Assembly (NCBI RefSeq): GCF_003130405.1
Contig: NZ_QEAS01000005.1
Location: 219,318 to 283,317 of the forward strand
Length of the DNA stretch: 64,000 nucleotides
DNA from: Pararcticibacter amylolyticus
GTDB lineage: Bacteria; Bacteroidota; Bacteroidia; Sphingobacteriales; Sphingobacteriaceae
Direction of reading: 5' to 3'
The notes under the pieces were generated by a model. It searched no databases and was not told the DNA's origin. It saw only the letters and a program-made list of their open reading frames with translations. Numbering within the stretch: position 1 is the stretch's first letter; each line of letters starts with the position of its first letter. Below are positions 5,128 through 37,786 of this stretch, one piece after another. A program made the translations under genes and the position numbers.

Positions 5128-6162
5128 TCACCTTTTTTCAACGTCAAAATACTCAGCCTTTATTCCCCTGTCCCTGACAATCAGGGTGTCTTTAGTTGCG
5201 TATCGTAAATTTAAGTTCTTAAAATTAACGGTGTAATCCAGATAAATCGCACTGCGGTCTGAACCTCCTATACTATTTTTCTCTCCTTTTGAGATAAACT
5301 TTCCGCTTCCTGCTATTTCAAAATTTGCGGAATTGCTCCCTACAGTGCATGTTCCGTCATCGGCAAAATTTAAAACCAGCGTAAATGGAACGTTAGTACC
5401 CGAACTGTTCTTGATCGCTAGTGGCAGATTGGCTGTTTTCAGTGATCCAGTAGAGATACTGACAACCTCATTGTTTTCGACATAGGGTGTATGGCGAACA
5501 ACGGAAGTTACAGACCCATCAGCTTTTGTAATCTGGTCCGCTCCTTTTCTCAAATAATTCCCGTGCCAGGGATTTACGTACTTAACGGCATAAAGGACAT
5601 AATCTTTGGGTCTTGTTATCCAGTTTTGCATGATAAAGCGGGAGGGATTAGCAACGGCTGGGTTACCCTTAAGAATGGAATCTGCGCCGCTTAGCCCGGT
5701 CATCACCAACGGAATTACATAGGTTCTTGAAATGGAGCTGGGGTCGGCAAAGAAAGCATCGGTTAGCTGAACCTGAACCCCTCCCAGAATACTGCCTGAT
5801 GGAATCGTAATCTGATTGGATGCAAGTGTATAATAGTTTGATGGCATAGGAATGATTTTGGCTCCGCCATTATTAAAATATAAACCATCCAGAAGCGATT
5901 CATCAACTTTTATGTCAATTACAACATTTTCCCGGTTCTCGTAAACTCCTCCTATGGTAGCTTTAATGTCTACTTTATGTTGATTGTCGAGAGAGTTGTC
6001 TACTAACAGCTCTTCTCCGAGGACTACAGTTCTCAGAGGATATTGCGTGGCGAAATAGGCGGCTTTATAATTGAAGTCGGGATAAGCAACCTCCTCGTTT
6101 TTACAGGATACAAGCAAAGTGATCGCAACGGTTAAACCCCTGCATATTCTATTAATTTTCAT
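5128..6162 (-). CDS. xusE: XusE-like surface lipoprotein (DUF1735/DUF5627), copy 1
   Basis: The open frame extends to 6294, but the start at 6162 is preferred: it gives a lipoprotein signal (MKINRICRG...LLVSC, C20) and begins 31 bases after the susD stop, whereas the longer form overlaps susD and starts with non-signal sequence. The product has 344 residues: an N-terminal DUF1735-like beta-sandwich (segments IPMPSNYYTLAS and VQLTDAFFADP) and a C-terminal DUF5627-like sandwich. In xylan loci of Bacteroidota this position (xusE) encodes a surface glycan-binding protein. It is colinear with the copy at 26945-27913 but carries about 20 extra residues near the middle (after DSILKG). It is the last gene of cassette 1; no xylanase follows. 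Confidence 0.85.
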   Translation of the reverse strand: MKINRICRGLTVAITLLVSCKNEEVAYPDFNYKAAYFATQYPLRTVVLGEELLVDNSLDNQHKVDIKATIGGVYENRENVVIDIKVDESLLDGLYFNNGGAKIIPMPSNYYTLASNQITIPSGSILGGVQVQLTDAFFADPSSISRTYVIPLVMTGLSGADSILKGNPAVANPSRFIMQNWITRPKDYVLYAVKYVNPWHGNYLRKGADQITKADGSVTSVVRHTPYVENNEVVSISTGSLKTANLPLAIKNSSGTNVPFTLVLNFADDGTCTVGSNSANFEIAGSGKFISKGEKNSIGGSDRSAIYLDYTVNFKNLNLRYATKDTLIVRDRGIKAEYFDVEKR

Positions 6163-6193
6163 GTTTATCAAGCATTTAATTGTCGTTTTATAA

Positions 6194-7993
6194 CTACTTC
6201 CATCCCTGATTTTGCAAAAGCTGGCTATACTTCCGCACTTCTGAATTAGGAATGGGACCGTAATACATGTAATTCTGATAAGAACGTGTTTCAACGTTGA
6301 ATGGGACGAAAACGCCAGCCTTCAGATCAAGTCCCCGGGTGGTTTCATTGAGCTTGGCTATGTCCACTTTCCAGCGGCGAAGGTCCCAGAAGCGAAAACT
6401 CTCAAAGCATAATTCGAGACGACGTTCGTTCCGGATCAACTCCCGCATTTTATCTTTATCTGTTTTAATTTCCTCCAGATATGGATCATTGTTTAGCCCT
6501 AAAGCCCTTTTACGAATAGCTTTAATGATATCATAAGCTGAATAGCCATGACTGCCCTGACCGGTTGGCCCCCACGCTTCGTTGGCTGCTTCTGCATAGT
6601 CAAGGTATATTTCTGTGTATCGGATCCGTGGAGTGTAATGTGTTTTACCGCTTAACGAAATCGGGTTGCGGTTAACATCCATCCTAAGCCGTTTTCTCAT
6701 ATAATACCCTGTACGTGTAGAGGTTGACCTTGCGTTAATTCCGTCATCGGTTCCCGATCCGCTGCCAGTCAGGATTGTTGAATTTGATACACCAGCCGCA
6801 CTTCCATTATAAATAATATACTTTGCGAGTCTGGGGTCTCTTTGAGAAAATGGATTGGATGAATTGTAGGTTGAATTTGGATGATCAATAGGAAAACCAT
6901 TAGCCATTGGAAAGGCCTCTACGAGGTTTTGTGTCGGATTCATCCTGCCGTTACCAAAGAGGGAAGGGGGGAAGTTTTCTGCTTCGATATCTCCGTTGTT
7001 TGTTTGAATATTTTCTCTCCAGATAATTTCGGGCGGGTTAGCACCGTTACTTATTCCGTCAACCTCATTGGAATTGAAATTAGTATAGTACACGAGACCA
7101 CTTGCCGGTAAGGCGTTAGCACCTCCCTTGTAGTCAATTACGGCTGCAGCATAGTTAGCCGCATCTGCCCATGTCACGGTGTTGGAACTGTGCTGGAAAG
7201 CAGGACTTGCTGCTAGTAATGCCAGTCTTGTGCGGAATGATTTCGCAATTAATCCATTGAACAACTGCCTGCCCGGTTCGCCCATCACCCGGTTATATGT
7301 TTCTGCGTTTTGTGTAATTGTCTTGAATCGATCCGGGATCTGAGACGCATTTACGTTATTATATTCTATGGGCAGGTAAGCTTCAGCACTGTCCAGATCC
7401 TTATAAATTTGTTTCACACAGGCGTCGAAATTAGCACGGGGTATATTGAATTCCGACTTGATAGTCTGATATTCAGTGATAATAGGTACTCCCATTAGCT
7501 GCCCATCGGGGGTGAATCCACCGTGATTACGTAACAGAAAATACATATAGAGACCGCGCAGGCCGAAAGCTTCGCCTCTCATTCTCATGTTGAAAAGCTT
7601 TGCAGCTTCCGGATCTTCCGCCCATTTTACTTTTCCCGATTGTTCAAGGAAAAGATTAATATACTGAATCGCTTCGTATGAACGGTTCCATAACGAAGCA
7701 GGATTGTTGGATGCAGTCCAGGAGCCCGTGGTCATTTGCAGCCAGCCGTCACTGAACTGATTAGTTACAGCATCATCTGTCGCGTAATCTGAATTATCAT
7801 AATAGCCCGGAATAGTTCTGTATGCATTGACCACAACGCCCTGTGCATAGTTCACGTCAGTATACATCTGCTCAATGTTCTTCAGATTCTCAGGTTCGGG
7901 ATCCAGGATATCCTTGCAGCCTGTAAAAACGAGAACTGCCAATCCAATAAATATTATATTAAATTTCATATAATTACTCATTACTTTGTTCAT
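6194..7993 (-). CDS. xusD: SusD/RagB-family lipoprotein (XusD-type), copy 1
   Basis: A 599-residue SusD-like surface glycan-binding lipoprotein with lipobox VFTGC (C26 from the first ATG, C18 if ATG 9 is used), TPR-like helices and the C-terminal RNERRLELCFESFRFWDLRRW signature typical of SusD/RagB. The start shares a TAATG with the stop of the upstream SusC-like gene, indicating translational coupling; ATGs at residues 5 and 9 are alternatives. SusD proteins cap the SusC channel and deliver oligosaccharides. This one pairs with the shorter SusC-like protein at 7993-10860 and is paralogous to 27952-29706. Confidence 0.93.
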   Translation of the reverse strand: MNKVMSNYMKFNIIFIGLAVLVFTGCKDILDPEPENLKNIEQMYTDVNYAQGVVVNAYRTIPGYYDNSDYATDDAVTNQFSDGWLQMTTGSWTASNNPASLWNRSYEAIQYINLFLEQSGKVKWAEDPEAAKLFNMRMRGEAFGLRGLYMYFLLRNHGGFTPDGQLMGVPIITEYQTIKSEFNIPRANFDACVKQIYKDLDSAEAYLPIEYNNVNASQIPDRFKTITQNAETYNRVMGEPGRQLFNGLIAKSFRTRLALLAASPAFQHSSNTVTWADAANYAAAVIDYKGGANALPASGLVYYTNFNSNEVDGISNGANPPEIIWRENIQTNNGDIEAENFPPSLFGNGRMNPTQNLVEAFPMANGFPIDHPNSTYNSSNPFSQRDPRLAKYIIYNGSAAGVSNSTILTGSGSGTDDGINARSTSTRTGYYMRKRLRMDVNRNPISLSGKTHYTPRIRYTEIYLDYAEAANEAWGPTGQGSHGYSAYDIIKAIRKRALGLNNDPYLEEIKTDKDKMRELIRNERRLELCFESFRFWDLRRWKVDIAKLNETTRGLDLKAGVFVPFNVETRSYQNYMYYGPIPNSEVRKYSQLLQNQGWK

Positions 7994-10860
7994 TAAAAAG
8001 AAGTCCTTATACCCAGATTAAAGAACCGGGTCTGTGGTTCCAGCCCTATATTCGTTTCCATTAGTTCGCGCTCGCGGGATATAACGAGGAGGTTATCACC
8101 CTGGACGTACAAGCTGAGTCCATGGATAAACGAATTTTTAAAAACATCCTGGTTAAAGTCGTAAGTAAGTTGTACCCTGTTCAGATCAAAGCGGTTTGTT
8201 TTATACATCCAGAAAGTGGAATTCCGGAAGTTGTTGCTGCTGTTTGTTGTCAGGCGCGGATAGGTTGCGTTACTCTTCGTGGATTCCGTCCAGCGGCCCC
8301 ACACTACATCTGAGTATTTTCCGGTGCCACCTACCCAGTAATAAGAACTGTTTTTAAAGCCGATCGCTCCCCTGTTACCCGAACCTAAAGCAAAAAATGT
8401 AAGGTTCTTCCATTTAACAGTAAGGTTTAACCCATAGGTAAATGGCGACGCTGCCCAGCCTGTATGTCCCAGATCTATCTGGTCCCTGCTGTCAATCAAA
8501 CCATCGTTGTTGATATCTTTGTACTTGATATCACCTGGCTTTACCGGACCGAATGTTTGTCTTGCATGATTGTCTATTTCAGCCTGGTTTTCGAAAAGGC
8601 CCTCGCTGATATATCCATAATATGCATCTAATGATCTTCCTGTCCTTGCAAGATAACTCTCCTCCGGAAGCTCATCCCTGCGTAACACCTTAGACGAATA
8701 GATCATTCCAACAAGCCCCAAAGAGTATTGCACTTGAGCAATGTTTTTGTTCAGGTTAACAGAAAAATCGAGACCAGACCGTTTGTCCTTATTGAAGTTA
8801 ATCCATGGCCGGAAATCACCTGAACCGGAAAAATAAGCAGGATATATGCTAACACCCCTGGCTAGTAGTCCGTCTGTAGTCTGAGAAAAGTAATTGACAT
8901 CAAGGCTTACCAGGTTTTTCCAGAGAGCGCCTTCCATGCCAACTCTGAATTCTTTACGCTTGACGAATGTGAGGTCCGGATTCTCTGCTTGTCCGGAGAG
9001 TGTTGTTCTCCCGCCTGCTACGCCGTCACGCCACTGATACCATCCCCCGAAGGTTGCAGTGTTGCTATAATAGCCCTGATATAGATAATGATCCACAGGT
9101 TCGCTGGTATTGTTGGCCCTGTAGCCAGTAATGTCTATGTCCTGATTAATAGATGCATAAGATGCCGTAATTTTCAGGTTGTCGACGAACGAAACGGTGT
9201 TTTTGAAAAATTCTTCGTCACTAACACGCCAGCCCAGTGTCACCGCTGGGGATAATGCGTTCCGCTTTCCTGGAGGAAGTTTAGCAGAGTGTATAAGTGC
9301 AGCAGAAAAATCGGCATAGTATTTTTTTTGATAATTGTAACCAGCCTGGAATCCGAGATTTGTATTTTTGAATGGCTGATAATCACTTCCTCCCTCGTTG
9401 TCGGGATCACTCGAGAATTGTCTCTTGTACCACCAACCCAGTAAAGCAGCCGTCACATTATGCTTTCCCGAAAAGTTGCGTTCATAGTTGAATTGGGATC
9501 TGACAGACATTGTCTGCGTGTAAGTAGACCTTCCTATAAATTCATTGGTTGAGTTCTTGTCCTCTCCAAATGGTTCCAGCGCCGTGATTAAATCCTGACC
9601 ATTGACAGTAGCCCAGGTAGGTCTGTATGTTCTGTAGGGAAGTTGATAGGCTTCTGAAAATACGGAGGTATAATCCATGCTGTTAGCTGTTGTAAATGAT
9701 AATCCTTCCAAAACCGATCTCAAATCAGCGGTTGCGTTCAAATTATACATGAATGTCCGGTTCCTGGTCTTAATATAGCCGGATGCCAGCATATCAGAAA
9801 AAACGTTAGTTGGATTAGTGCTTTGGCCGCCGAGAAGATATTTCCCGTCGATTATATGATTGCTCGTTTTAACAATGGCCTGTAGCTGGCTATTTTCAGG
9901 ATCGAGCATGCTGATAGGGATAAACGGAGAAAAACGGTTGAAATTGGGTGCTATTGTTGCTGCAGATGACCAAAAGCTGCCTCTTCCTGCGTAATTATTA
10001 GAAATAACCGCCACAGCATCTGCGGAGGCTTTCAGCCATTTAGCAATGTCCATATCCACGTTCCCCCGTACATTAAAAGCAAAATCATTGTTTTTCTTTT
10101 GTTCTCCGTACTTCATCAGGCTATTATTGTATGCCAATCCCAGGTTGGTATAATAGCGTGCATTTTTATCTCCGCCGGATATTTCTGTTGTAATGTCAGA
10201 TCTTGAATATGCTTTTTTAAGATACTCGGAACTGAAAAAATCGATATCCGGGTATCTGTAAGGGTTGGTGCCTGACCGCGTATTATCAATCGCCTCCTGA
10301 GTATACCCGGCACCACTTGTTGCTATTCCGTCATTCGTTAATGCTTCGTTATATAAGGTCATATAGTCAGCCGCGTTAAGATAATTGGGGTATGATTTTG
10401 GGACAAAAAGTCCCGTATTAGCCCTTACATCAATCGTCAGAGGTTTTATGCTTCCTCTTTTTGTAGTGATAAGTATGGCTCCCCTGGAAGCGCTGCTTCC
10501 ATACAATATTACCGAACTTGCCCCCTTCAGTACAGTGATGGATTCTACTTCAACCATGCGGATATCAGAGGCCCGGCGTGGTATTCCGTCTACCAGTATT
10601 AAAGGGGCTTGTCCCCAGATATTTCCGGTATAACCGCCTACAAAGCTTTGAAGGTTATCAAGGCTATACGTCCCATAACTCTTCTTTAACAGATCAGGAA
10701 CATTTACAATCGATATAGTACCGGTCAGATCCTCTCTGGCTATAGTACGAAAGGCAACATTTACAAGACTGTCTTGTTCTATCTGTGCGTGTAATCCTGT
10801 AAGTCCTGTAAAGAATGCTGCAATCAGAACAAAGCAGGTTTTTATATTTCTTTTCTTCAT
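7993..10860 (-). CDS. xusC: SusC-like TonB-dependent transporter lacking the carboxypeptidase-like domain, copy 1
   Basis: A 955-residue outer-membrane beta-barrel transporter: signal peptide 1-25, a short about 40-residue lead-in, plug domain (PLILVDGIPR, VEVESITVLKGASS, YGSSASRGAILITTKRG) and the SusC barrel ending in an aromatic strand (LGIRTSF). Unlike usual SusC proteins it has no N-terminal CarboxypepD-regulatory-like sandwich before the plug. The lead-in (VAFRTIAREDLTG...NLQSFVGGYTGNIWG) matches its paralogue at 29737-32667. It is the second SusC of a tandem SusC/D pair, as in the xus (xylan) cluster of Prevotella and Bacteroides. Substrate: xylo- or arabinoxylo-oligosaccharides by context. 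Confidence 0.93.
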   Translation of the reverse strand: MKKRNIKTCFVLIAAFFTGLTGLHAQIEQDSLVNVAFRTIAREDLTGTISIVNVPDLLKKSYGTYSLDNLQSFVGGYTGNIWGQAPLILVDGIPRRASDIRMVEVESITVLKGASSVILYGSSASRGAILITTKRGSIKPLTIDVRANTGLFVPKSYPNYLNAADYMTLYNEALTNDGIATSGAGYTQEAIDNTRSGTNPYRYPDIDFFSSEYLKKAYSRSDITTEISGGDKNARYYTNLGLAYNNSLMKYGEQKKNNDFAFNVRGNVDMDIAKWLKASADAVAVISNNYAGRGSFWSSAATIAPNFNRFSPFIPISMLDPENSQLQAIVKTSNHIIDGKYLLGGQSTNPTNVFSDMLASGYIKTRNRTFMYNLNATADLRSVLEGLSFTTANSMDYTSVFSEAYQLPYRTYRPTWATVNGQDLITALEPFGEDKNSTNEFIGRSTYTQTMSVRSQFNYERNFSGKHNVTAALLGWWYKRQFSSDPDNEGGSDYQPFKNTNLGFQAGYNYQKKYYADFSAALIHSAKLPPGKRNALSPAVTLGWRVSDEEFFKNTVSFVDNLKITASYASINQDIDITGYRANNTSEPVDHYLYQGYYSNTATFGGWYQWRDGVAGGRTTLSGQAENPDLTFVKRKEFRVGMEGALWKNLVSLDVNYFSQTTDGLLARGVSIYPAYFSGSGDFRPWINFNKDKRSGLDFSVNLNKNIAQVQYSLGLVGMIYSSKVLRRDELPEESYLARTGRSLDAYYGYISEGLFENQAEIDNHARQTFGPVKPGDIKYKDINNDGLIDSRDQIDLGHTGWAASPFTYGLNLTVKWKNLTFFALGSGNRGAIGFKNSSYYWVGGTGKYSDVVWGRWTESTKSNATYPRLTTNSSNNFRNSTFWMYKTNRFDLNRVQLTYDFNQDVFKNSFIHGLSLYVQGDNLLVISRERELMETNIGLEPQTRFFNLGIRTSF

Positions 10861-10876
10861 TTTGTTGACATATTGG

Positions 10877-12763
10877 TTACCAGCCCGGGTTTTGCTTAAA
10901 TTCCTTATACATATTCACGTCTTGTGTCCGAAACGGAAACCAGTAGTGCCGGTCTCCCAGCTGCCTTTCGAATAAAACTACTTCTCTAAGATTACGGACC
11001 TTTGCATTTACAGGGTCGGCATATACCTGGGCATTTGGAGTTGCGCGATCGAATTCAATAGCTGTCTTTAGAGTGTAAGGACGCTGAGTCAAAAGCAGCC
11101 ACCGGCGCAGGTCATTAAAACGATGTCCCTCAAAAGAGAGCTCAACCGCCCGTTCGCGACGAAGCTCCTGTAGAAAATCTGCGGTTGAACCGAGGTATTT
11201 TTCCGCAACCCCGGTAACTCCTGCGCGGTTACGGATTTTGTTTACTGCATCTGCTGCTGATAAATTGTAGCCAGGCGCCATACTTTGAGGACTCCCATAT
11301 CCCACTGCTGTGGCTTCAGCATATAATAAATACACGTCAGCCAGCCGCATTAAACTCATTACACAAGTGTTGTTATCTCTGTATCCATCAAACTCATTGG
11401 AAAGTTTGGATATATACTTGGCGAGAAGATACCCTGTCCACACCTTCTTATTGTCATCTGCTGTCCTGAATAGTCCGTTAGTAAAAAGGCTGGCGTATTG
11501 TCTGTACTCATTGTTGCCGACACTCTGAGCACGTACAACAGTTTTTTCTCCGTCGAACAGGATATCATTGTAGAAACGGGGATCGCGGTTTTTCCATGGA
11601 TATTCCGGATCGTAACCCGATTCTGGATCTTTCGTTGCAAGGTCTTTAATCGGAAGGCCGTTAGCCATCCCATAATAATTAACATAATTAGCGGTAGGAT
11701 AGACCTTGATTCCGGTTTGATTAATAGTGTTTGGGCGGTAATCATTTACCTGGTTATAACGCCAGCGACCGCTTGCTTCGGTCAAATTTTCCAAAAGAAT
11801 AGATTCCTTAAGCCCTGGTAGCTTACCCCCTGCATTCCACGTATAGAATACTTCTCTATACTGCGAAAATGATGCTAACTCATAACGTTTGGTTGATTCT
11901 ATTACATTAAGCGCCTCAGCAAAAACATCAGCTGCCTTTTTACAATATCCGGGATTGTAGTCACTGCTCCCTGTAGATTCCCTGTTCATCAAAGGACTTC
12001 CAGCCCATAAGTAATTTTTGCCAAGAAAAGCCAGGGCCATGATCCTATTGATCCGCTGGCTGTTCCTTCCTGTAGTTTGCTTTCCTGCTTGTGTCTGATC
12101 CCAGTCAACAGGAAGAAGTTCTGCAGCCTTTTGTAAGTCTTCTGCAACTTTATCTGCCGTTTGCTGATAGTTTAGCCGTGAAAGCTTAATGACCTGGTCG
12201 GTAGGCAGAACCTGGTCAATATAAGGTAGACCTCCCCAGTATTCCATTAAAACAAAATGGAAATATCCCCTGAAAAAATATAGCTGGCCGGCAATAAGAT
12301 TTTTTTCTTCCTGGGTTGCATCTGTAAGCTTATCGAGATTTGCAAGTCCCACGTTGGCCTTACGAATGCCGTACCATGAGAGCTGCCAAAGCCGGCCTTT
12401 TTTGAAGCGATCTGTATTAGAAGGATCTCCTCCGTCTGCCTTGAAGAAATTATAATAAGCACTCTCCCATGCCCGGTAGTCGCCCTGGTCAATAGCATAA
12501 GCTATTACCCTGGTTTCGCCCACCTGCCAAAATTCTTCCTCTCCCAGATTCCAGCTACTATGGTATTCATTCCCGGAGAGCATTGGAATACAATTATACA
12601 ATTCCTCAGTGAATCCCTGGAAGTTCCTGAAGTTCTTATAAGGATCCGTTTCGGCGATATCAGCTAGTGGAGATCTATCTAAATATTTCTTACATGAACT
12701 AAGTGTCAGGGTCGCCAGTAAAATGGCGAGCGGAACTAATATTTTTTTAAAGAGCTTCTTCAT
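10877..12763 (-). CDS. xusB: SusD/RagB-family lipoprotein (XusB-type), copy 1
   Basis: A 628-residue SusD-like lipoprotein (lipobox LSSC, C24) with SusD helices and a C-terminal LRRERAVELSFEGHRFNDLRRW signature. It follows the first SusC by 10 bases and precedes the second SusC by 16, so it lies in one operon. It binds glycan at the cell surface and acts as the lid of the XusA-type SusC. The conserved early segment NFRNFQGFTEELYNCI is shared with its paralogue at 32696-34594, which also has the same length within four residues. Confidence 0.93.
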   Translation of the reverse strand: MKKLFKKILVPLAILLATLTLSSCKKYLDRSPLADIAETDPYKNFRNFQGFTEELYNCIPMLSGNEYHSSWNLGEEEFWQVGETRVIAYAIDQGDYRAWESAYYNFFKADGGDPSNTDRFKKGRLWQLSWYGIRKANVGLANLDKLTDATQEEKNLIAGQLYFFRGYFHFVLMEYWGGLPYIDQVLPTDQVIKLSRLNYQQTADKVAEDLQKAAELLPVDWDQTQAGKQTTGRNSQRINRIMALAFLGKNYLWAGSPLMNRESTGSSDYNPGYCKKAADVFAEALNVIESTKRYELASFSQYREVFYTWNAGGKLPGLKESILLENLTEASGRWRYNQVNDYRPNTINQTGIKVYPTANYVNYYGMANGLPIKDLATKDPESGYDPEYPWKNRDPRFYNDILFDGEKTVVRAQSVGNNEYRQYASLFTNGLFRTADDNKKVWTGYLLAKYISKLSNEFDGYRDNNTCVMSLMRLADVYLLYAEATAVGYGSPQSMAPGYNLSAADAVNKIRNRAGVTGVAEKYLGSTADFLQELRRERAVELSFEGHRFNDLRRWLLLTQRPYTLKTAIEFDRATPNAQVYADPVNAKVRNLREVVLFERQLGDRHYWFPFRTQDVNMYKEFKQNPGW

Positions 12764-12773
12764 CCTTAGTAAT

Positions 12774-17107: not shown

Positions 17108-17232
17108 TTTTTAGGAGTTAAAGATTTAAAAATTGATCTGGTTCTAATTTAATGTGCTTTATTGTAGTAAAGTTCGTACTGTGTAGTAAGTCAGCACTCT
17201 ATTTGCACGAGCGCATATTTACTGGTAAATAG

Positions 17233-20411: not shown

Positions 20412-20419
20412 ATTGAAGT

Positions 20420-27951: not shown

Positions 27952-29706
27952 TTATCGCCACCCTGCATTTTGAACCAGGTTATTGTACTTTAGCGTCTCA
28001 CTGTAGGGTATAGGTCCGTAAATCATATAGCTTTGATATGCCCTGTTTTCCACGTTGATGGTGTTGAAGTTGCCTCCGGATATGCTCACACCTTTTACCT
28101 CTTCGTTTAAATTCGCGTTCCATCTCCGCAAATCCCAGAAACGAAAACCCTCAAAACATAGCTCCAGTCGTCTTTCGTTTCGGATCAATTCTCTCATGGC
28201 ATTTTTATCACTTTTAATCGATTCCAGATATGGATCTCCGTTAGAAACTCCTACGCCTGCCCGTCTTCTGATCGCTTTGATCACGTCGTAGGCAGAGTAA
28301 CTATGCCCTCCGGTTGCTAACGGCCCCCATGCTTCATTCGCTGCTTCTGCATAAGCCAGGTAAATCTCCGTATACCGGATATGCGGATTGAAGTGTTTCT
28401 GCGTCGTGGTAGAAGTGGGATTAAGATTAACATCCTGCCTGAGCAACTTCTTCAGGTAATAACCAGTACGCGTAGACGTCTCTACTTTATTTAAACCGTC
28501 ATTGGTCGTTCCGTCTGCAGAAGTATTGATCGGCGTATTGGATGTTCCTGCAGTACCGCCATTTATAAGAATATACAGGTTTAATCTGGGATCACGGCCG
28601 TTATAAGGAGACGAAGCGTTAAAGCCGCTGTTGGTTAAATCTGTAATCGGGTATCCATTTGCCATTGGGAAGGCATTTACCAGGTTTTGAGAAGGGTTAA
28701 CCCGTCCGTTTCCGTTCAGCGTTGGGGGAAAATTATCCCTCTCCAGGTCGTTACTGGTACCGACATTTCCTCTCCACAATATTTCAGTAGGATTAGCGCC
28801 TGCAGCCAGACCGTCTATACCACCGGTGCTGTTGTACCAGACGAGGTCGTTGCTCGTCATATTAGTTATTCCCCCCCTTAAATCAAGGACTTCTGCTGCA
28901 AAATTAGCCGCCTGCTCCCATTTGGTGACGTTTCCGGTATTATAAGCGGGACTTGCAGCCAGCAAGGCGGCTCTAACCCTGATGCCTTTAGCAATGCGGG
29001 CTGTCATACGACCCATGAAACTCGCCCCGAAGACTCGATGATAATCATCGGCGCTCGTTCCGGTGTATTTAGCCGGCACTGGTGAATCGTCTTTGTAATC
29101 CAGGGGAAGCAGTTCTTCCGCCTTGTCAAGATCAGAGTAAAGCTGTTGTAAACATGCATCAAAAGTTGCCCTGGGTTGGTTAAAGTCTGATGCAACGGTT
29201 TCATTCTCCTGCAATAAAGGAACTCCGAGCAATTCACCGCTTTCTGTTTTTCCTCCATGGGATTGAAGAAGATAGAACATAAACAATGCCCTGAGTCCGT
29301 ATGCTTCACCTTTCATCCTGTCGTTGAACATGGTACGGATAATTGGTTCTCTCGCCCAATCTACACTATCGGATACTGCAAAGAACTGGTTTAGATACTG
29401 AATAGCTGACCGGCTGTTTCTCCATTGATCTACCGGGTTATTCATGGCGGTCCATTGTCCTGTTGCCATCTTAAGGAAACCATTGTTCCTATCGTTACTT
29501 ACAGCGTTATCAGTAGCCACGTCATTAAATGACCATGAATTTGTCGGGAGCCTTGTGTACCCGTTAAGCAACAAGCCCTGGGCATAGGCCGCATTATCGT
29601 AGGCGTTTTTCAGCTCAAGATTGTTTTCTATTTCCGGTTCAAACATATCCTTGCAACTGCTGAATACAAACAATGCTGATAAACAGATTAATACTATTTT
29701 TTTCAT
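27952..29706 (-). CDS. xusD: SusD/RagB-family lipoprotein (XusD-type), copy 2
   Basis: A 584-residue SusD-like lipoprotein (lipobox FSSC, C18), with the RNERRLELCFEGFRFWDLRRW C-terminal signature and close colinearity to 6194-7993 (for example YIPGPIP-like endings and GHSYSAYDVIKAIRRR). It follows the short SusC-like gene by 30 bases. Here the start is not fused to the upstream stop, unlike in cassette 1. Role: glycan capture and lid for the paired SusC-like transporter. Confidence 0.93.
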   Translation of the reverse strand: MKKIVLICLSALFVFSSCKDMFEPEIENNLELKNAYDNAAYAQGLLLNGYTRLPTNSWSFNDVATDNAVSNDRNNGFLKMATGQWTAMNNPVDQWRNSRSAIQYLNQFFAVSDSVDWAREPIIRTMFNDRMKGEAYGLRALFMFYLLQSHGGKTESGELLGVPLLQENETVASDFNQPRATFDACLQQLYSDLDKAEELLPLDYKDDSPVPAKYTGTSADDYHRVFGASFMGRMTARIAKGIRVRAALLAASPAYNTGNVTKWEQAANFAAEVLDLRGGITNMTSNDLVWYNSTGGIDGLAAGANPTEILWRGNVGTSNDLERDNFPPTLNGNGRVNPSQNLVNAFPMANGYPITDLTNSGFNASSPYNGRDPRLNLYILINGGTAGTSNTPINTSADGTTNDGLNKVETSTRTGYYLKKLLRQDVNLNPTSTTTQKHFNPHIRYTEIYLAYAEAANEAWGPLATGGHSYSAYDVIKAIRRRAGVGVSNGDPYLESIKSDKNAMRELIRNERRLELCFEGFRFWDLRRWNANLNEEVKGVSISGGNFNTINVENRAYQSYMIYGPIPYSETLKYNNLVQNAGWR

Positions 29707-29736: not shown

Positions 29737-32667
29737 TTAAAATAATGCCTTTATTCCGAGATTGTAAAACCTCACCTGCGGCGCAGAGCCTACATTCATT
29801 TCCATGATGTCTCTCTCCTTTGCTATGGTAAGAAGATTAAACCCATTCACATACGCTCCGAGCTCTCTGATCAGTCCCTTTCCCAGAATGCGGGCAGGGA
29901 ACTGATACGATATCTGTACTTTTGCCAGATCAAACCTGTCGGTACTGTAAATCCAGAAATCCGAACTCCGGTAATTATTATCAGCAGTACCGGTAGTAAG
30001 CCGCGGGAAAGTGGCAGTGCTTTTCGTTTCCTCTGTCCACCGGTTGCGAACAACCGCAGAGTATTTATCCTGGCCATCTACCCAGAAGTAGCTGTTGTTT
30101 TTCATTGCCTTTGCACCGAAGCGCCCTGCACCCAACGCAAATAACGTGAGGTTCTTCCATTTAGCCGTCAGGTTGACGCCAAGCGTTAACGGAGAACCAG
30201 CCCAGCCTCCTCTTCCCAGATAAACCTCATCACGTGTATCAACGATACCATCATTATTCTGGTCTTTATACTTAATGTCTCCGGGTTTAACGCCACCGGA
30301 TGCTAATGTCGACTGATTCGGCGAGTTGGCTATATCATTATAGTCCATGAAGAAACCATCACTTTTCAATCCAAAGATGGCATCAACGGGTTGTCCCACC
30401 CGTCGTTGGTAAGCATCTGCATACTCGGCATCCGATGCCCTGACGCTTGCTTTCGTATGATAATAAGTGCCGTTGAAACCAAGTGTCCATGCTATTTCTC
30501 CAAGCTTTTTGTTAAAGTTGAGGTTGAAATCAAAGCCGTTTCGCCGGTCCCGGTCATAGTTAGCATATGGTACATCTGAATATACAGGCCATCCTGTTGA
30601 AAAATAAACAGGATATAAAGCTGTTAAAGGCACCACGTTTCCTTTGGTCTCACTAAAGAATGCATTTCCACTAAATCCTATTGCATTATTCAATAGCGAT
30701 CCTTCAAGTCCGAAACTTATTTCTCTTCTTTGGGGAAAAGTCATGTCAAAGTTGTTCCCTCTTCTTCTGTCGAAGCTGTGCACTAGCTGGCCATCTTTCC
30801 AGCTATGCCAGGCGGCATCGTTATAGGTATAATATCCCTGGTAAAGGAAATAAGAAGAGATATCCAGATCTGTATTTAGTATACCTGCCGATGCAGTGAC
30901 TTTTAAGTTGTCAAAAACGTGTGAGTTCTTCAGGAAATTCTCTTCACTGATTCGCCATCCCAGGCTTAATGTAGGGGAAAATGCACCCCGGTTACTTGCA
31001 GGAAGCTTAGCTGAATAAATGTATGCGCTACTGAAATCTGCATAATACTTATGATCAAAATTATAAGCTAACTGAAGTCCGAGATTGGCATTGTTTGTTG
31101 CGTGATAAACTTCAGATTCTCCGATGTAAAACCCATAACCCAGTAAGGTGCCGGTAAAATTATGTTTCCTGTTAAAGGTACGATCGTAATCAAATTGCCC
31201 GAAAAACGATATATTTTGCCGGTAACTGCTATTACTGATATTTTCTGCCCCCGTTTTTGAATCATTGCCATATTTTGTCAGTCCGCTGATTTGCTCAAAA
31301 CCAGCATAGGTATTCCACCCAGCTTCGTAAACCGCGTAATTATTATTGTAAGATTGGGTAAATCCGGTCCGGTAATCGATTGCGAGTCCTGATTTAAAGG
31401 AGAATCCCTCCAGTAACCGGCTTAGATCAAAATCCAGTCCGGTATTAAACTGAAACTGACGGGTGATGTTCTTGCTGGACCCCCCTGCATAAACAGAAGC
31501 GAATACATTGGTTTGGTCTAATTGCGTTCCGCCAAGCAGGTATTTTCCATCTATGATATAATTACTGTTATTTACATAAACCATAGAGGGATCATCTCCT
31601 TCTTCCAGCATACTAATTGGAATCAGAGGAGAGAATCTGTTGGGCCTGACAGTTGCAGAGCTGCCCCAGTAGTCAGCATTTACACCTTTCCCTGTATAAA
31701 AACTAGCTGAGGCATCGACGTTTAACTTAATCATCTTATTCAGTTTCACGTTGATATTTCCCCGCAGGTTGAACCTGTTCGATCCATTGTTGTCAACGGC
31801 TTCTCCGAAGTTCAGCAAAGAGCCGTTGGACCAGAATCCCAGGTTAGTATAGTATTGCGCTTTATCATTTCCTCCTGATATTTCCGTTGTCAAATCAAAC
31901 CGGTTATAGCTGTCTTTCAAATATTCTGAAGAGAAAAAGTCGATATTTGGATACCGGAAAGGATTTAAGCCCGCAGAATGATTGTAAATAGCGCTGGTGC
32001 TGTAAAGATCCGTTAAACCATCGTTTCTGCGTGCCTCATTATATAAGGTCATGTATTCGGCAGAACCGAGATATTCCGGATAAGCTTTGGGAACGTTGAT
32101 ACCCGCATTGGCTCTTACATTCACCCGCTGACTGTAGTTGCCCCCTCTCTTGGTAGTGATGTATACAACTCCTTTTGCAGCCCTGCTTCCATAAAGAGCA
32201 ACATTTCCTACACCTTTCATAACTGTGATCTGGTCGATCTCTGTGGGCATAATATTGTCAGCATCCCTGGGGAATCCATCTACAAGCACCAGATAGCCGC
32301 TGTTTCCCCAAATGTTTCCATTGTTTCCAAAGATGTTTCCGTGGACCCCTGGGGTGAGAGCATCAAGATTTTCGAGGCTGAAGGTTGAATAATTTTTCTC
32401 CATTAAGCTGGATAGATTAACTACCGAGACTCCTCCCTGGAGGTCCTTTTTATTCACTTTCCTGAATGCAACCTGAACGAGAGAGTCTTTTCCGTCATTT
32501 GCTGTAGTTATAGAATCCTGCTGCCTGGTTCTAAGGGCAGTTGCATCCGTGGTGATGATCTTGCCTGATTTACTGTTTATATCGAAAGCACCCTTTGCCT
32601 GCGTCAAGCCGGATAAGCCCGTCGCGACCGTGAGGCAGAATGCTATTCTTATTTTTATTTGCTTCAT
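29737..32667 (-). CDS. xusC: SusC-like TonB-dependent transporter lacking the carboxypeptidase-like domain, copy 2
   Basis: A 976-residue outer-membrane transporter, paralogue of 7993-10860. Signal peptide about 1-24, then a lead-in (DSLVQVAFRKVNKKDLQGG) instead of the CarboxypepD-like sandwich, plug (YLVLVDGFPR, IDQITVMKGVGNVALYGSRAAKG) and SusC barrel ending LGIKALF. Compared with copy 1 it carries an extra GNNGNIWG-like repeat before the plug strand. Two paralogous copies with the same missing domain show that the loss predates the duplication of the cassette. Confidence 0.93.
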   Translation of the reverse strand: MKQIKIRIAFCLTVATGLSGLTQAKGAFDINSKSGKIITTDATALRTRQQDSITTANDGKDSLVQVAFRKVNKKDLQGGVSVVNLSSLMEKNYSTFSLENLDALTPGVHGNIFGNNGNIWGNSGYLVLVDGFPRDADNIMPTEIDQITVMKGVGNVALYGSRAAKGVVYITTKRGGNYSQRVNVRANAGINVPKAYPEYLGSAEYMTLYNEARRNDGLTDLYSTSAIYNHSAGLNPFRYPNIDFFSSEYLKDSYNRFDLTTEISGGNDKAQYYTNLGFWSNGSLLNFGEAVDNNGSNRFNLRGNINVKLNKMIKLNVDASASFYTGKGVNADYWGSSATVRPNRFSPLIPISMLEEGDDPSMVYVNNSNYIIDGKYLLGGTQLDQTNVFASVYAGGSSKNITRQFQFNTGLDFDLSRLLEGFSFKSGLAIDYRTGFTQSYNNNYAVYEAGWNTYAGFEQISGLTKYGNDSKTGAENISNSSYRQNISFFGQFDYDRTFNRKHNFTGTLLGYGFYIGESEVYHATNNANLGLQLAYNFDHKYYADFSSAYIYSAKLPASNRGAFSPTLSLGWRISEENFLKNSHVFDNLKVTASAGILNTDLDISSYFLYQGYYTYNDAAWHSWKDGQLVHSFDRRRGNNFDMTFPQRREISFGLEGSLLNNAIGFSGNAFFSETKGNVVPLTALYPVYFSTGWPVYSDVPYANYDRDRRNGFDFNLNFNKKLGEIAWTLGFNGTYYHTKASVRASDAEYADAYQRRVGQPVDAIFGLKSDGFFMDYNDIANSPNQSTLASGGVKPGDIKYKDQNNDGIVDTRDEVYLGRGGWAGSPLTLGVNLTAKWKNLTLFALGAGRFGAKAMKNNSYFWVDGQDKYSAVVRNRWTEETKSTATFPRLTTGTADNNYRSSDFWIYSTDRFDLAKVQISYQFPARILGKGLIRELGAYVNGFNLLTIAKERDIMEMNVGSAPQVRFYNLGIKALF

Positions 32668-32695: not shown

Positions 32696-34594
32696 TTACC
32701 AGCCGGGGTTTTGTGAGAATTCCACGTACATGTTTACGTCGACATTTTTAAGTGGCAGCCAGTAATGTTTGTCGGAGAATTTCCTCTCCAGGATTGTCAC
32801 TTCCCGTAGATTTGCTACGCTGTTGAGACTGGCATCTGTTTGGTTAAACGTTCCTGTACGGTCGAATTCTACAGATTTTTTCAGGGTATAAGGTTGTTTG
32901 GTTAATAAAAGCCATCTTCGCAGATCGTTGAAACGATGTCCTTCAAACGAGAGTTCTACAGCTCTTTCCCTTCTTAGCTCGGGCAAGAAGTTATCCGGTG
33001 CACCCAAAAACTTGGAGTTGACCTTTTCTACGCCAGCCCTTTGCCTGATTATATTGACCGCATCTTCTGCCGTTTTACTGTAGTTAGGATCTTTGCCGCT
33101 TGACGATCCATATCCCATTAACGCAGCTTCCGCATACATCAGATAAACGTCAGCCAGCCGCATGTACGGTACGTAAATATGGAGATTATTACCCCAGCTG
33201 TAAGCATTATCATACTTGTTTGCTGTTTTCGGAACGAATTTGATCAGTACATATCCTGTACGGCTACCGGTACCCACATTCCGGTAGCTACCGTTAGTGT
33301 AAAGATTTGCATAGCGATTGGGTTGCTCATCGACATTCGGAATTGCTCCCTGAACAAATTTAACCCCGTCAAAAACGATGTCACTGTAAAAACGTGGGTC
33401 CCGGTTTTTCCATGGGAAGTGCGGGTCATAACCCGATTCTGTATCAGGCTGGGTAATGTCCGGAATAGGAAGTCCGTTTTTCATTCCATAATAGTCTACA
33501 TAGTTGGCCGTTGGAGTGAATTTGAGATCTCCTTCGGAAACCACCAGAGGTGTATATTGCTTACTGGTGCCCCAGTTGGAATTATTTGCCGAATAATACG
33601 GACCTCTGAAAATGGCTTCGGTGCTGCCCGGAAGTGCCCATCCCTCGCCTGTTGTATAGAAGTTTTTATAGTAGTTTGCAAAAGTTACAAGACTGTATGG
33701 CGTGACTCCGCTCTCAGTAAGGCCTAAAAGCTCTCCAAAAGCAGCAGCCGCCTTTTTGCAATATTCAGTATTGTAGGTTTTGCTTCCCGTCGATTCGAAG
33801 TTCATCAAAGGACTTCCTGCCCACAGGTAATTTTTACCGAGATAGGCAAGTGCCATAATTTTGTTGATCCGCAGCTGGTTTTTTCCCAGCGTTCTTTTTC
33901 CCGGAACGGTTTCGTCCCAGTTCACGGGTAGCAGATCTGCTGCTGCTCTGAAATCGGCCGCTGCTTTATCTGCACATTCACTGTACTTAAGACGGGGCAG
34001 ACGGATGTCGCCCGTACTGGGTAATACATAATCAATGTATGGCAGGCCGCCGAAATATTCCATTAAACGATGGTGAAACCATCCTCTGAAAAATAGCAAC
34101 TGTCCTTTTACCAGATTTTTCTCTTCCTGTGTGGCATCTGTCATTAGGTCCATATTGGCCAGGCCGATATTTGCTTTTCGGATCCCATACCATGCCGCGT
34201 TCCAGAGATCTTTGTTGAACCGGTTGTCAGGAGTTGTACTGGTGGTAAAATCAGACTGGTTCATCCAGCCAGATCCCCAGCCATCAAATTCAGATTGCCA
34301 TCCCCAGAAATTTCCGTCATCTATTTTATGAATAAAGTGAAAGTTCCCGGCAGTCGAGGTAATCTCATCTTCTCCCCAGTTCCACGAGTTTGTCCAGTAA
34401 TTGTTGCTGAAGTTGACTATACAATTGTATAGTTCTTCTGTGAAGCCCTGAAAATTAGTAAAGTTCTTAAACGCTTCCTTTTCTGAAATATTAGTCTGAT
34501 CGTCTTTATCCAGATATTTTTCGCAAGACGAAAAGCAAACAGCTGCCCAAACGACAAAGCAGGAGATAATCGTTTTTATATATTTTGTTCTCAT
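32696..34594 (-). CDS. xusB: SusD/RagB-family lipoprotein (XusB-type), copy 2
   Basis: A 632-residue SusD-like lipoprotein (lipobox FSSC, C24). It shares NFTNFQGFTEELYNCI, the LRRERAVELSFEGHRFNDLRRW signature and the ending FSQNPGW with 10877-12763. It lies 9 bases after the first SusC stop and 28 before the second SusC start. It is the surface partner of the XusA-type transporter encoded just upstream. Confidence 0.93.
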   Translation of the reverse strand: MRTKYIKTIISCFVVWAAVCFSSCEKYLDKDDQTNISEKEAFKNFTNFQGFTEELYNCIVNFSNNYWTNSWNWGEDEITSTAGNFHFIHKIDDGNFWGWQSEFDGWGSGWMNQSDFTTSTTPDNRFNKDLWNAAWYGIRKANIGLANMDLMTDATQEEKNLVKGQLLFFRGWFHHRLMEYFGGLPYIDYVLPSTGDIRLPRLKYSECADKAAADFRAAADLLPVNWDETVPGKRTLGKNQLRINKIMALAYLGKNYLWAGSPLMNFESTGSKTYNTEYCKKAAAAFGELLGLTESGVTPYSLVTFANYYKNFYTTGEGWALPGSTEAIFRGPYYSANNSNWGTSKQYTPLVVSEGDLKFTPTANYVDYYGMKNGLPIPDITQPDTESGYDPHFPWKNRDPRFYSDIVFDGVKFVQGAIPNVDEQPNRYANLYTNGSYRNVGTGSRTGYVLIKFVPKTANKYDNAYSWGNNLHIYVPYMRLADVYLMYAEAALMGYGSSSGKDPNYSKTAEDAVNIIRQRAGVEKVNSKFLGAPDNFLPELRRERAVELSFEGHRFNDLRRWLLLTKQPYTLKKSVEFDRTGTFNQTDASLNSVANLREVTILERKFSDKHYWLPLKNVDVNMYVEFSQNPGW

Positions 34595-34603
34595 AAAATA
34601 TCT

Positions 34604-37600
34604 TTAAAAAATAATGTTTGCACCCAGGTTGAAGCGCTTAACAGTTGGATAGGCGCCTTGTGAAGCCCAGCCGGTTCCTGCAAAGTTCGACTCCCTGTCG
34701 TCAGGCATTTTCGTCCACACTGCCAGGTTGTTTCCGTTCAGGAAGACTCTCATACTTGCTATTCCAAGTCTTTTGACGAAACTGTTCTCCCTTTGGAATG
34801 TGTATGCTATTTCCGCATTCTTTAAACGGATATAGGACCCGTCAAACATGTACCTGCTTCCTGCATTATAGCTGCTTGGAGTCGACAACCAGCGGGGTAA
34901 TGGTACGTCGCCGTCGGTGTTGTCTTTAGACCAGTACGATCCTTCATCATATACCAGGTGATTTTGACCTGATAAGCTGCCAAACACTACCTGCCTGGTT
35001 ACATTATTGACACCATAGAACTGTACGAAGGCGCTGAAACCTTTCCAGTCAACACCAAATGTCGCATTGAAAGTATGTTGCGGAACAGAAGGGAATGCAT
35101 AAGGAATGTTATCTTTTGCATCAATTACTCCGTCAGCATTGTAATCAAGGATGTGATAGTTCCCGGGTAGTTTTTGTTCATCACCATTGTCTGCTATGGT
35201 GCTCGCATACAACTGATCCCATGTATTATAGTACCCGGCACTCACGTGGGAGTAAGTCTGGCTGATTTGCTTGCCGGCGCGTTTCTGATAATCCGGAAGC
35301 AATGAAGCATCATCTGCCTCAATCACTTTATCCTTCGCCCGGGTATAGTTCATGTTCGCCCAGATATGCCAGTTCGGATTTAGCTTTTTGTCCATGGCTA
35401 ACTCCAGCTCATATCCCTTATTTTCAACAATACCCAGATTCTGTATAGGAGGCAAGACTCCATAATAGGAGGGGATCGCACGTCTGTCGCCAGTAAGCAG
35501 AATATCAGAGCGCCTGTCTTTGAAGAAATCAAATTTTCCTGAAATAAACCCCTTGAAAAAGCTGAAATCTGCGCCAACATTCATTTTTTTCACTTTTTCC
35601 CATCTTACATCTGGATTTCCCAAAGCGCTTTGCCTGTACCACACATACGGACTTGTTTCAGAGCCTTCACCGGTAACCCCCAGTTTAGTCTGTCCGCCAT
35701 AGGCCCACTGAGTCAGATACAACCAACGTGCCCCACCGCTGTCATCACCTATCTCACCGTATGAACCCCTGATCTTCAGGTTGTCCACAAAGGTTAAAGG
35801 CTTCATGAATTTCTCCTCTGAGATTGTCCATCCCAAACCTCCTGATGAGAAGAAAGCGAAGCGGTTTTCAGGACCGAATTTGGATGAGCCGTTATAAGAC
35901 CCGTTATATTCTAAAATGTATTTGTTGGCATAATTATAAGTAGCACGGAAAACCCAGTCCTCGCGGTTAAAAGGGATTTCGCTGCCGGTTGCGTATTGGT
36001 TACGATTGAATAAGCCCATGGCCGTAACATTGTGCTTGACCCCTAAGGTTCTGGAATAGTTTAACTGAGCCTGGTAGAAGAGACGACGGTATGTTAACCA
36101 GTCTTGAACCGTTCCGCCCACAGTAGCCCAGTTGATGCCGTTTTGAAAGTCAAAACGATTGGTCGCATCGAAGGCCTGCTGATAGGTTGTTTTTCCGGTT
36201 TCCGGGTCAATCCACTTCGCCTGGGTATCATTATATAGATCGTTAACACCCCGGCTGCCCTCGATAAAAGAATTGTCAAGTGCTATTGTCCCCTTGAAAT
36301 TTAGTCCTTTTACAAAACTTGCGAGGTCCTGATCCAGCGTAAAATCTGTAGTGATCCTGTTAGTTGTGGTATATGACACGCCGCTCACAGCCAGTATTCT
36401 GGCAGAGTTAAGTCCGCGTTGTACATTGGGTGCATGATAGCCCCAGGTTCCGTCTGAATATTGGGGCATAAAGACGTCAGGAGCCGTCGAATAGGCTGAT
36501 ATCCAATAGGAATAATCACTGTTCGACGCGCCCCATGGCATTTTCTTTACACCTCTTGAACCAGACAGGTTTGTCTTCAGAATAGTAGATTTTGATAGTT
36601 GAAAGTCAAGGTTGCTCCTCATATTGAGGCGATTAAATCCATACCCTGGTTTATATCCACGGTCATTCTCAAATGTCCTGAATAAATCGCCCTCGTAAAG
36701 ATAATCAGCACTTGCAAAATATTTAACCTTGCTGGTTCCACCGGAGATGTTAAGATTAGCATTATGTGACATGGCATAATCTTTAAAAAGCACTTCATCC
36801 CAGTTTACATTTGGATAACGTTCTGCTTCTGTCTGATCTGCCGGATAACGGTATTTATTGATGATGTCCTGGGGCAGGTAGTCGTTCCAGCTTTCAGGTC
36901 TGAGGGCAAGTTCATATTCAATTACCTCGTTTCTGATCCGGAGTGCGTCATAAGCATCATATTTTCCTGGTAGTTTAGAAGGAACTTTCACGACGTTGTT
37001 GACTGTTCCGCGCACACTGGCCTGGCCTTCACGTCCCCTTTTGGTTGTAATCAGGATGACTCCATTTGCACCCCTGACGCCGAAAACTGCTGTAGCAGAT
37101 GCATCTTTAAGTACAGAGACTGATTCTACCGAGCCAATATCCACACTCGTCATCGGCCGCTCTATACCATCTACTAGAATCAGAGGATCATTGTTGTTCC
37201 ATGTACTTCTTCCTCTAATGACGATACGTGGATCCTCATCGCCAGGCATCCCTGTACTTGCTGTGGTAACAACACCAGGGACGTTTCCGGTAAGCGCCGC
37301 TCCTATACTCGATACACCACCTGCTCTTTCGAGCACTTTTCCGGTAGTTTGTGCAACTGCGGCGACGACACTGGCTTTCTTCTGTGTGCCATAACCCACG
37401 ATTACCACTTCTTCCAGGCTGGCTGCGTCATCCCGCATTGTTACTCTTACTTCTGTTTTGCCTTTCACATCAACTTCCTGCGGGTGCATGCCTACATATG
37501 AAACCACAAGTATCTGCCTGTCTGACGGAACAACAATTGAGAATTTTCCGTTGACATCTGTTAGTGTTCGTGTTGAGGTGCCTTTAACCGTAACGGTGGC

Positions 37601-37786
37601 CCCTATAACTGAATTATGCTGCTGATCTAAAACTGTCCCTTTCACTGTATGCCTTTGTTGGGCCGCTGTATGGAAAACCAGCAGGAGCATAATGAGGTGC
37701 GTAAGATGTAATCTTGTTAATAAGCGCTTCCTTAGCGAAAAATTATGGGTTACGCTCTTACTTTCTTTTAGTATCTCTTTCTTCAT
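34604..37786 (-). CDS. xusA: SusC-like TonB-dependent transporter (XusA-type), copy 2
   Basis: A 1060-residue classical SusC, first gene of xus operon 2. A long cytoplasmic lead precedes the signal hydrophobic stretch (about 25-42), so a later start is possible, but no better internal ATG gives a normal signal peptide except M33. CarboxypepD-like sandwich about 46-130 (KGTVLDQQHNSVIGATV), LEEVVIVGYGTQK, plug with VESVSVLKDASATAVFGVRGANG, and a barrel ending LGANIIF. The promoter at 38107-38171 gives a leader of about 320 nt. It is the paralogue of 12774-15908. Confidence 0.95.
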   Translation of the reverse strand: MKKEILKESKSVTHNFSLRKRLLTRLHLTHLIMLLLVFHTAAQQRHTVKGTVLDQQHNSVIGATVTVKGTSTRTLTDVNGKFSIVVPSDRQILVVSYVGMHPQEVDVKGKTEVRVTMRDDAASLEEVVIVGYGTQKKASVVAAVAQTTGKVLERAGGVSSIGAALTGNVPGVVTTASTGMPGDEDPRIVIRGRSTWNNNDPLILVDGIERPMTSVDIGSVESVSVLKDASATAVFGVRGANGVILITTKRGREGQASVRGTVNNVVKVPSKLPGKYDAYDALRIRNEVIEYELALRPESWNDYLPQDIINKYRYPADQTEAERYPNVNWDEVLFKDYAMSHNANLNISGGTSKVKYFASADYLYEGDLFRTFENDRGYKPGYGFNRLNMRSNLDFQLSKSTILKTNLSGSRGVKKMPWGASNSDYSYWISAYSTAPDVFMPQYSDGTWGYHAPNVQRGLNSARILAVSGVSYTTTNRITTDFTLDQDLASFVKGLNFKGTIALDNSFIEGSRGVNDLYNDTQAKWIDPETGKTTYQQAFDATNRFDFQNGINWATVGGTVQDWLTYRRLFYQAQLNYSRTLGVKHNVTAMGLFNRNQYATGSEIPFNREDWVFRATYNYANKYILEYNGSYNGSSKFGPENRFAFFSSGGLGWTISEEKFMKPLTFVDNLKIRGSYGEIGDDSGGARWLYLTQWAYGGQTKLGVTGEGSETSPYVWYRQSALGNPDVRWEKVKKMNVGADFSFFKGFISGKFDFFKDRRSDILLTGDRRAIPSYYGVLPPIQNLGIVENKGYELELAMDKKLNPNWHIWANMNYTRAKDKVIEADDASLLPDYQKRAGKQISQTYSHVSAGYYNTWDQLYASTIADNGDEQKLPGNYHILDYNADGVIDAKDNIPYAFPSVPQHTFNATFGVDWKGFSAFVQFYGVNNVTRQVVFGSLSGQNHLVYDEGSYWSKDNTDGDVPLPRWLSTPSSYNAGSRYMFDGSYIRLKNAEIAYTFQRENSFVKRLGIASMRVFLNGNNLAVWTKMPDDRESNFAGTGWASQGAYPTVKRFNLGANIIF

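Follow-up and report, generated by a model that had tools for sequence, protein, structure and literature searches.

Two xus importers of apparently old, separate lineages lie in one xylan locus of Pararcticibacter amylolyticus

Gene content of the two xus cassettes

We analyzed a 64,000-nt stretch of the Pararcticibacter amylolyticus genome (contig NZ_QEAS01000005.1, positions 219,318 to 283,317; hereafter the window, whose numbering is used throughout), which contains two xus cassettes, namely c1 (5128-15908) and c2 (26945-37786). Both lie on the minus strand in the order susC-susD-susC-susD-xusE, and all five gene pairs have the lengths claimed in a preliminary description of this DNA. By Pfam, from which all domain assignments of window proteins were taken, the A and C proteins have a TonB plug domain, the B and D proteins are SusD-like, and XusE of either cassette combines BT_3987-like_N with DUF5627. 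The two xusE genes are the only DUF5627 genes in the 6.3-Mb genome. In the following list, type I and type II denote the clades of a concatenated tree that hold c1 and c2, respectively, and protein lengths are in amino acids (aa).

5055..5091, minus strand: terminator-like hairpin 3' of c1 xusE (fold z -3.65)
5128..6162, minus strand: c1 xusE, BT_3987-like_N and DUF5627 lipoprotein, 344 aa (Pfam; groups with 3N91/BACOVA_03430)
6194..7993, minus strand: c1 xusD, SusD-like, 599 aa (Pfam; tree)
7993..10860, minus strand: c1 xusC, SusC-like, 955 aa, without CarbopepD_reg_2 (Pfam; tree)
10877..12763, minus strand: c1 xusB, SusD-like, 628 aa, lipobox Cys (Pfam; tree)
12774..15908, minus strand: c1 xusA, SusC-like, 1044 aa, CarbopepD_reg_2 (Pfam; type I in tree)
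25238..26923, minus strand: GH10 xylanase with a CBM4_9 insert and lipobox Cys (acid/base, WDVVNE, and nucleophile, SELD, intact)
26945..27913, minus strand: c2 xusE, BT_3987-like_N and DUF5627, 322 aa (Pfam; tree)
27952..29706, minus strand: c2 xusD, SusD-like, 584 aa (Pfam; tree)
29737..32667, minus strand: c2 xusC, SusC-like, 976 aa, without CarbopepD_reg_2 (Pfam; tree)
32696..34594, minus strand: c2 xusB, SusD-like, 632 aa (Pfam; tree)
34604..37786, minus strand: c2 xusA, SusC-like, 1060 aa, CarbopepD_reg_2 (Pfam; type II in tree)

The c1 xusE gene starts at the ATG at 6162, which gives 344 aa; a longer open reading frame (ORF) beginning with TTG runs into xusD. The preliminary description had c2 end with a GH10 gene and c1 with a hairpin, and both statements held: the gene at 25238-26923 encodes both catalytic glutamates, and the hairpin has a 14-bp stem followed by AUUUUAA, a short U run (minimum free energy -23.9). 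A domain missing from the second SusC had been taken as a sign of duplication. The domain, CarbopepD_reg_2, is indeed present in XusA and missing from XusC in both cassettes, but it was found in 0 of 15 sampled XusC proteins. Because the absence is universal in sampled XusC, it is no sign of recency, and we rejected it as a mark of duplication.

The cassettes belong to separate lineages

The sources of relatives were named genomes together with 301 from the family and 395 from the class. After their loci had been read, 128 loci entered the closest-relative comparison and 119 complete cassettes the concatenated tree. The family is Sphingobacteriaceae, in which another genome, G153 (L096), has a cassette separated by zero distance from one in a named Pedobacter (L028). 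The identity between c1 and c2 proteins is 52% for A, 52% for B, 48% for C, 54% for D and 50% for E, a distance over five pairs that a recent duplication would not be expected to reach. The nearest cassettes to the c1 genes were in G227, G224, G063 and G199 (67-79% identity), and the nearest to the c2 genes was in the congener G005 (80-88%).

The concatenated tree divides into two large clades, and members of Bacteroidales, Sphingobacteriaceae and other groups occur in both. Cassettes c1 and c2 also fall apart in separate trees of A, B, C, D and E, and the approximately unbiased (AU) test rejected c1 and c2 as sisters for all five genes (P = 2e-49 for E, 4e-43 for D, 3e-33 for A, 2e-44 for C and 0.003 for B). 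These comparisons indicate that c1 and c2 represent two old sister lineages of the xus importer that came to share a locus, rather than copies made by local duplication. The split between type I and type II appears older than the families sampled, and c1 and c2 would be paralogues only through that split.

The preliminary description had proposed a duplication followed by divergence, to be judged by pairwise identities and gene trees, and as a local event this is contradicted by the different distant relatives found in all five trees, the very outcome which that description had set as refuting. A tandem duplication in this lineage, after which the copies diverged fast and copy 1 lost its xylanase, would fit the same gene order, the matching lengths and the common block upstream of both cassettes. 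It is nevertheless extremely improbable, given the AU results, the fact that c1 is nearer to cassettes from other genera and families than it is to c2, and a congener locus (G005) that has no c1; the XusC domain absence and the lack of a GH10 are, moreover, lineage traits. Trees and synteny together led us to reject it.

One point weighs against a single history for whole cassettes. XusE of Chitinophagaceae type I cassettes falls elsewhere in the tree, so that the history of XusE is partly different. In L009-L013 and L043, which are Chitinophagaceae type I cassettes, XusE is about 52% identical to c1 XusE and A-D are 60-73% identical to their c1 counterparts; XusE may have been exchanged in these cassettes. 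A Bacteroidota-like type I cassette was also found in L016, the record of a Paenibacillus metagenome-assembled genome, which is probably a wrongly binned contig.

The GH10 slot is dead or empty in type I

The xusABCDE-xyn10C system was described in rumen and gut Bacteroidetes (PMC7848910), and its core cluster comprises a double susCD, DUF1735/DUF5627 and GH10 (PMC4855328, PMC11216935). A GH10 has been reported as invariable in the slot position (PMC7815789). The canonical unit, with an intact GH10 interrupted by a carbohydrate-binding module (CBM) directly 3' of xusE, was found in c2 and not in c1. Because c1 has no GH10 in the slot, we classed it as a type I variant and not as a canonical xus-xyn10C unit.

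No GH10 gene lies directly 3' of xusE in any member of the c1 subclade (the window and 14 loci, from Sphingobacteriaceae and Chitinophagaceae). The genes found there instead encode GH43-CBM6 (G203, G150, Filimonas and Longitalea), another GH43 (G063 and UBA1931), GH97 (Niastella) or a GH98-CBM3 protein of 2428 aa bearing a secretion tail (Pinibacter). L081, outside the c1 subclade count, is one more type I cassette without GH10. Throughout type I, c1 included, the slot holds no catalytically competent GH10: 0 of 32 cassettes have an intact one, 16 have a GH10 without the nucleophile and 16, among them c1, have none. The nucleophile Glu is gone in all 16 distinct type I GH10s (replaced by Ala, Asp, Gly or Asn, or deleted) and the acid/base Glu in 13 of the 16, with SWSVVYQP in Sphingobacteriaceae, while the reading frames remain long and intact. 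Among type II GH10s, both catalytic glutamates are present in 90 of 93 rows. The three exceptions are one genome counted twice (L035 and L116) and one fragment. L035/L116 (G051) is a type II cassette whose dead GH10 groups with the dead type I GH10s, and it is a possible hybrid. The asymmetry between c1 and c2 is one local instance of a difference that sets the two xus lineages apart across the phylum.

A tree of the GH10 catalytic domain, built after removal of the catalytic motifs, divides the dead type I GH10s among three clades, and each of these adjoins type II GH10s from its own part of the taxonomy, suggesting that a working GH10 was lost repeatedly in the type I slot. Three changes were reconstructed (3-3 in 200 bootstrap trees), and a single clade was disfavoured by the AU test (P = 0.013). 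Two observations count against this history: full-length GH10 proteins give two origins of dead GH10 rather than three, and the dead GH10s sit on long branches, although long-branch attraction would unite them, the opposite of the three clades seen. Two or more separate GH10 inactivations, probably three, seem to have occurred in type I. Evenly balanced, in our judgment, is the broader proposal that type I cassettes are phylum-wide xylan importers from which a surface GH10 has been selectively excluded, the enzyme being either inactivated and kept as a binding protein or deleted. BACOVA_03431 was the single natural inactive GH10 known to Rogowski et al. (2015; PMC4491172), and our literature searches found no second one.

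Origin of the paired locus

The features on either side of c1 bear on how the two cassettes came to share a locus.

1054..2454, minus strand: GH43-CBM6 beyond the c1 end (Pfam; 70% identical genes lie directly 3' of xusE in G203 and G150)
2455..18050, no strand: segment absent from the otherwise syntenic G005 locus, comprising c1, the PPIC gene and small ORFs (synteny)
3243..4874, minus strand: PPIC-type peptidyl-prolyl isomerase, 543 aa, between c1 and GH43-CBM6 (Pfam)
18051..25073, minus strand: 7-kb island of unk248, TonB receptor, DUF4249 and MG2-Plug genes (Pfam; conserved after GH10 in G005, G107 and G102)

Synteny between the congener G005 and the window runs up to 2407 on one side of c1 and resumes at 18063 on the other; in place of c1, the PPIC gene and the small ORFs, G005 has one GH31-family gene. 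G107 and G102, from another genus, have the type II cassette, its GH10 and the DUF4249 island without c1. With c1 missing from all three loci, the simplest reading is a gain: c1 probably entered a type II locus that was already in place, where the MG2-Plug and GH43-CBM6 genes meet. The alternative, that G005, G107 and G102 lost c1, is possible but less parsimonious. The GC content of c1, which is like that of its surroundings, also speaks against a recent arrival; only the spacers at both segment ends are low (0.37-0.38), and we rejected GC as a sign of recent transfer. A low-GC spacer of 2.1 kb also lies between c1 and c2. No direct or inverted repeats of at least 24 bp were found at the ends of the c1 segment within window positions 1-24000.

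Alternatively, the locus may have been inherited vertically from an ancestor with both types, with type I lost in G005, G107, G102 and most relatives. Linked pairs of type I and type II in four more genomes of the family (G035, G056, G121 and G189) and the matching GC of c1 would agree with this. We find it unlikely in view of the three syntenic type II loci without c1 and of the five congeners searched, which have zero or one DUF5627 gene (the three that were read are type II). In addition, the type I cassettes in those four genomes fall in another subclade, one with a pseudo-GH10, and those pairs therefore seem separate in origin.

Several observations concern this part of the locus. Beside c1, at 16773-17717, are two small secreted-looking ORFs of about 110 and 130 aa with similar starts; no Pfam match was found for the longer one. 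The island at 18051-25073, perhaps a functional part of the xylan locus, is also found 3' of the pseudo-GH10 in the type I cassette of G035. Left of the window, GH31 and GH3 genes are 94-95% identical to those of G005, compared with 80-88% for the cassette genes, which may mark recent exchange between the two lineages in this stretch (L152 and the window start against L156 of G005). Between GH31 and the window (L152:14620-19323) lies a third SusD/SusC pair, different in kind and conserved in G005.

A shared upstream block and a candidate regulator

The upstream regions of c1 and c2 share a 45-bp block, and a gene for a hybrid two-component system (HTCS) regulator lies on the other strand.

16424..16468, minus strand: 45-bp promoter/operator block of c1, 40/45 identical to the c2 block (sequence comparison)
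38142..38186, minus strand: 45-bp promoter/operator block of c2 (sequence comparison)
58435..62568, plus strand: HTCS regulator with Reg_prop/Y_Y_Y sensor, HisKA, receiver and AraC HTH, candidate activator of both cassettes (Pfam)

The blocks lie about 560 bp (c1) and 400 bp (c2) upstream of the xusA starts. Near-identical promoters had been claimed for the two cassettes; this is true of the block, and no similarity outside it was seen by eye. The block core has only two sites in the 6.3-Mb genome at up to three mismatches (0 control matches). In 401 genomes of the order, at up to two mismatches, matches were confined to this genome, G005 (type II) and G227 (type I), and each lies about 11 kb upstream of a DUF5627 domain, as expected for a xusA promoter.

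Each window block contains a pair of GACA-type half-sites with a spacing of 21 bp. A wider motif search recovered a direct repeat with a 21-bp period, roughly ACATTCTTnnnC...ACATTnnTGCTA, in the upstream regions of about 70 of 106 xusA genes, type I and type II alike. This is far more than in shuffled sequences, a separation that is optimistic because the motif was trained on the same upstream regions. Known HTCS operators are direct repeats with a period of about 21 bp (PMC3878776), and the near-identical promoter thus fits a common HTCS operator. The c1 block matches the c2 block at 40/45 positions and that of G227, its type I relative, at 35/45, which is expected if the block follows the regulator. 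Concerted change as a general feature of linked pairs was considered and rejected, since only the window pair stands out and the operator similarity in the others is that of the wider motif.

The near-identical direct-repeat operators point to one HTCS for both cassettes. The regulator of both is most likely the HTCS at 58435-62568, whose DNA-binding domain is best matched by HTCS genes in related genomes, several being neighbours of xus cassettes; this one AraC-type HTCS would turn c1 and c2 on together. A second related HTCS ends near G000:C95:203124 and is 61% identical to it in the DNA-binding end. It is also conceivable, if rather improbable, that the block is a leftover of ancestry, or a recently copied promoter or other regulatory element, and no HTCS operator. 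The TGTACAATT sequence, which reaches past the two half-sites and outside the wider consensus, would agree with this, as would the operators of linked pairs in other genomes, which show no special mutual similarity. Either origin is, however, hard to reconcile with flanking upstream DNA that looks unrelated, and the 21-bp-period repeat, present upstream of most sampled xusA genes of both types, matches HTCS motifs (PMC3878776).

Likely substrates and division of labour

The only solved XusE relative found, 3N91, is BACOVA_03430 of PUL-XylL, a polysaccharide utilization locus (PUL) of B. ovatus (PMC4491172). It scored 393 bits with c1 XusE and 269 with c2 XusE. Both c1 XusE and 3N91 fall inside a 14-row type I XusE clade (support 100/99), and c2 XusE falls outside. 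PUL-XylL would thus be the CHARACTERISED system to which c1 is linked through XusE. The substrate of PUL-XylL is complex corn xylan, and its GH10, BACOVA_03431, binds xylan without being active; PUL-XylS handles simple xylans and has an active GH10 at the surface (PMC4491172).

Cassette c2 is the ordinary form (type II), in which the surface GH10 would cut xylan to oligosaccharides that are imported by two SusCD pairs and XusE, and its cargo would be the simple xylan fragments from its own GH10. Cassette c1 would capture and import heavily decorated fragments (corn-type glucuronoarabinoxylan), which would be debranched by nearby GH43, GH31, GH97, GH27, GH95 and CE enzymes. The PUL enzymes inside the window are GH95, GH127, several GH43, CE1, CE6, GH2 and GH8, and those just outside it are GH31, GH97, GH27, GH3, GH115, GH67 and GH10. 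We consider it quite likely that c1 and c2 form one co-regulated locus in which c2 is the simple-xylan and c1 the decorated-xylan importer, with the specificities predicted from relatives. The preliminary suggestion of xylans differing in decoration or oligosaccharide size gains indirect support from the grouping of c1 XusE with PUL-XylL and from type I, which has no functional GH10 anywhere sampled.

Some points tell against these assignments. The placement of PUL-XylL is that of its XusE, not of its SusC/D genes, and BACOVA_03430 bound no tested xylan (PMC4491172), so that XusE kinship is no proof of ligand. GH31, GH97 and GH95 also flank several type II cassettes. The enzyme neighbourhood was accordingly dropped as a separator of the types, as it is not clean: type II loci of related genera have GH31/GH97/GH95 too. 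Where the two types lie far apart, in G150 and G224, enzyme genes are plentiful at the type I locus, whereas the type II locus offers few genes apart from those for HTCS and GH10.

Every genome of the family sample that carries exactly two cassettes (seven genomes) combines type I with type II, the two being linked in G000 (this genome), G035, G056, G121 and G189 and unlinked in G150 and G224; G130 has three cassettes, two of them type I. This pairing would favour complementary over redundant roles, although it is suggestive only because several of the paired genomes are mutually related. Were c1 redundant, it would take up the same xylo-oligosaccharides as c2, for dosage or kinetic range, with the c2 GH10 serving both. 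The common operator, which suggests co-expression, and the presence of another GH10 and many xylan enzymes in the same locus are compatible with redundancy. We nonetheless think it unlikely: G227, G063, G199 and G203 have type I only, without GH10 in the slot, two-cassette genomes never have two of one type, and across the phylum type I has either lost the slot GH10 or retains it in a dead form.

Two further features of the PUL were noted. A transketolase is split over two genes at 45897-47776, with a transaldolase nearby (L151); these are genes of pentose metabolism. At 55441-58194, a single ORF fuses GH43-CBM6 and GH8 domains.

Implications for xylan importer annotation

Until now, xylan importers with a CBM-interrupted GH10 have passed for a single invariable unit, and they have served as a marker of xylan degradation. 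If they comprise two ancient lineages, one of which has no functioning xylanase, xylanase capacity is overstated in genome annotation, and the type (I or II) together with the two catalytic residues might predict import of simple or complex xylan. If GH10 is indeed excluded from type I, the decorated-xylan importer would depend on having mostly uncut substrate at the cell surface, and pseudo-xylanases would form a class of proteins that recurs, beyond the single described case. Repeated inactivation of one enzyme in one slot would be a natural experiment on the worth of a binding protein against that of an enzyme. With both types behind a common operator, the division of labour would be addressable in a single strain.

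Comparison with known systems

Cassette c2 shares with xusABCDE-xyn10C the full gene order, a DUF5627 XusE and an intact GH10 with a CBM4 insertion in the slot. The window locus differs from that system in holding two unlike cassettes.

PUL-XylL of B. ovatus (PMC4491172) resembles c1 and its surroundings in having two SusD-like proteins, a XusE in the c1 clade, a cassette without active GH10, and GH31, GH95, GH97 and GH43 enzymes with an HTCS in the locus; it also has a GH98, like the Pinibacter slot 3' of xusE. However, B. ovatus retains an inactive xylan-binding GH10 (BACOVA_03431), whereas the c1 subclade lost the gene.

PUL-XylS of the same organism (PMC4491172) is like c2 in combining an importer and a surface GH10 under an HTCS. 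It has one SusD-like protein and another binding protein (BACOVA_04391, 3ORJ), whereas c2 has two SusCD pairs and a DUF5627 XusE. Finally, PUL 43 and rPUL 70 of B. xylanisolvens (PMC4855328) are likewise two xylan gene clusters under one HTCS, but there the second cluster lies elsewhere in the genome and is without its own SusC/D, whereas the window locus unites two complete importers, each preceded by the same block.

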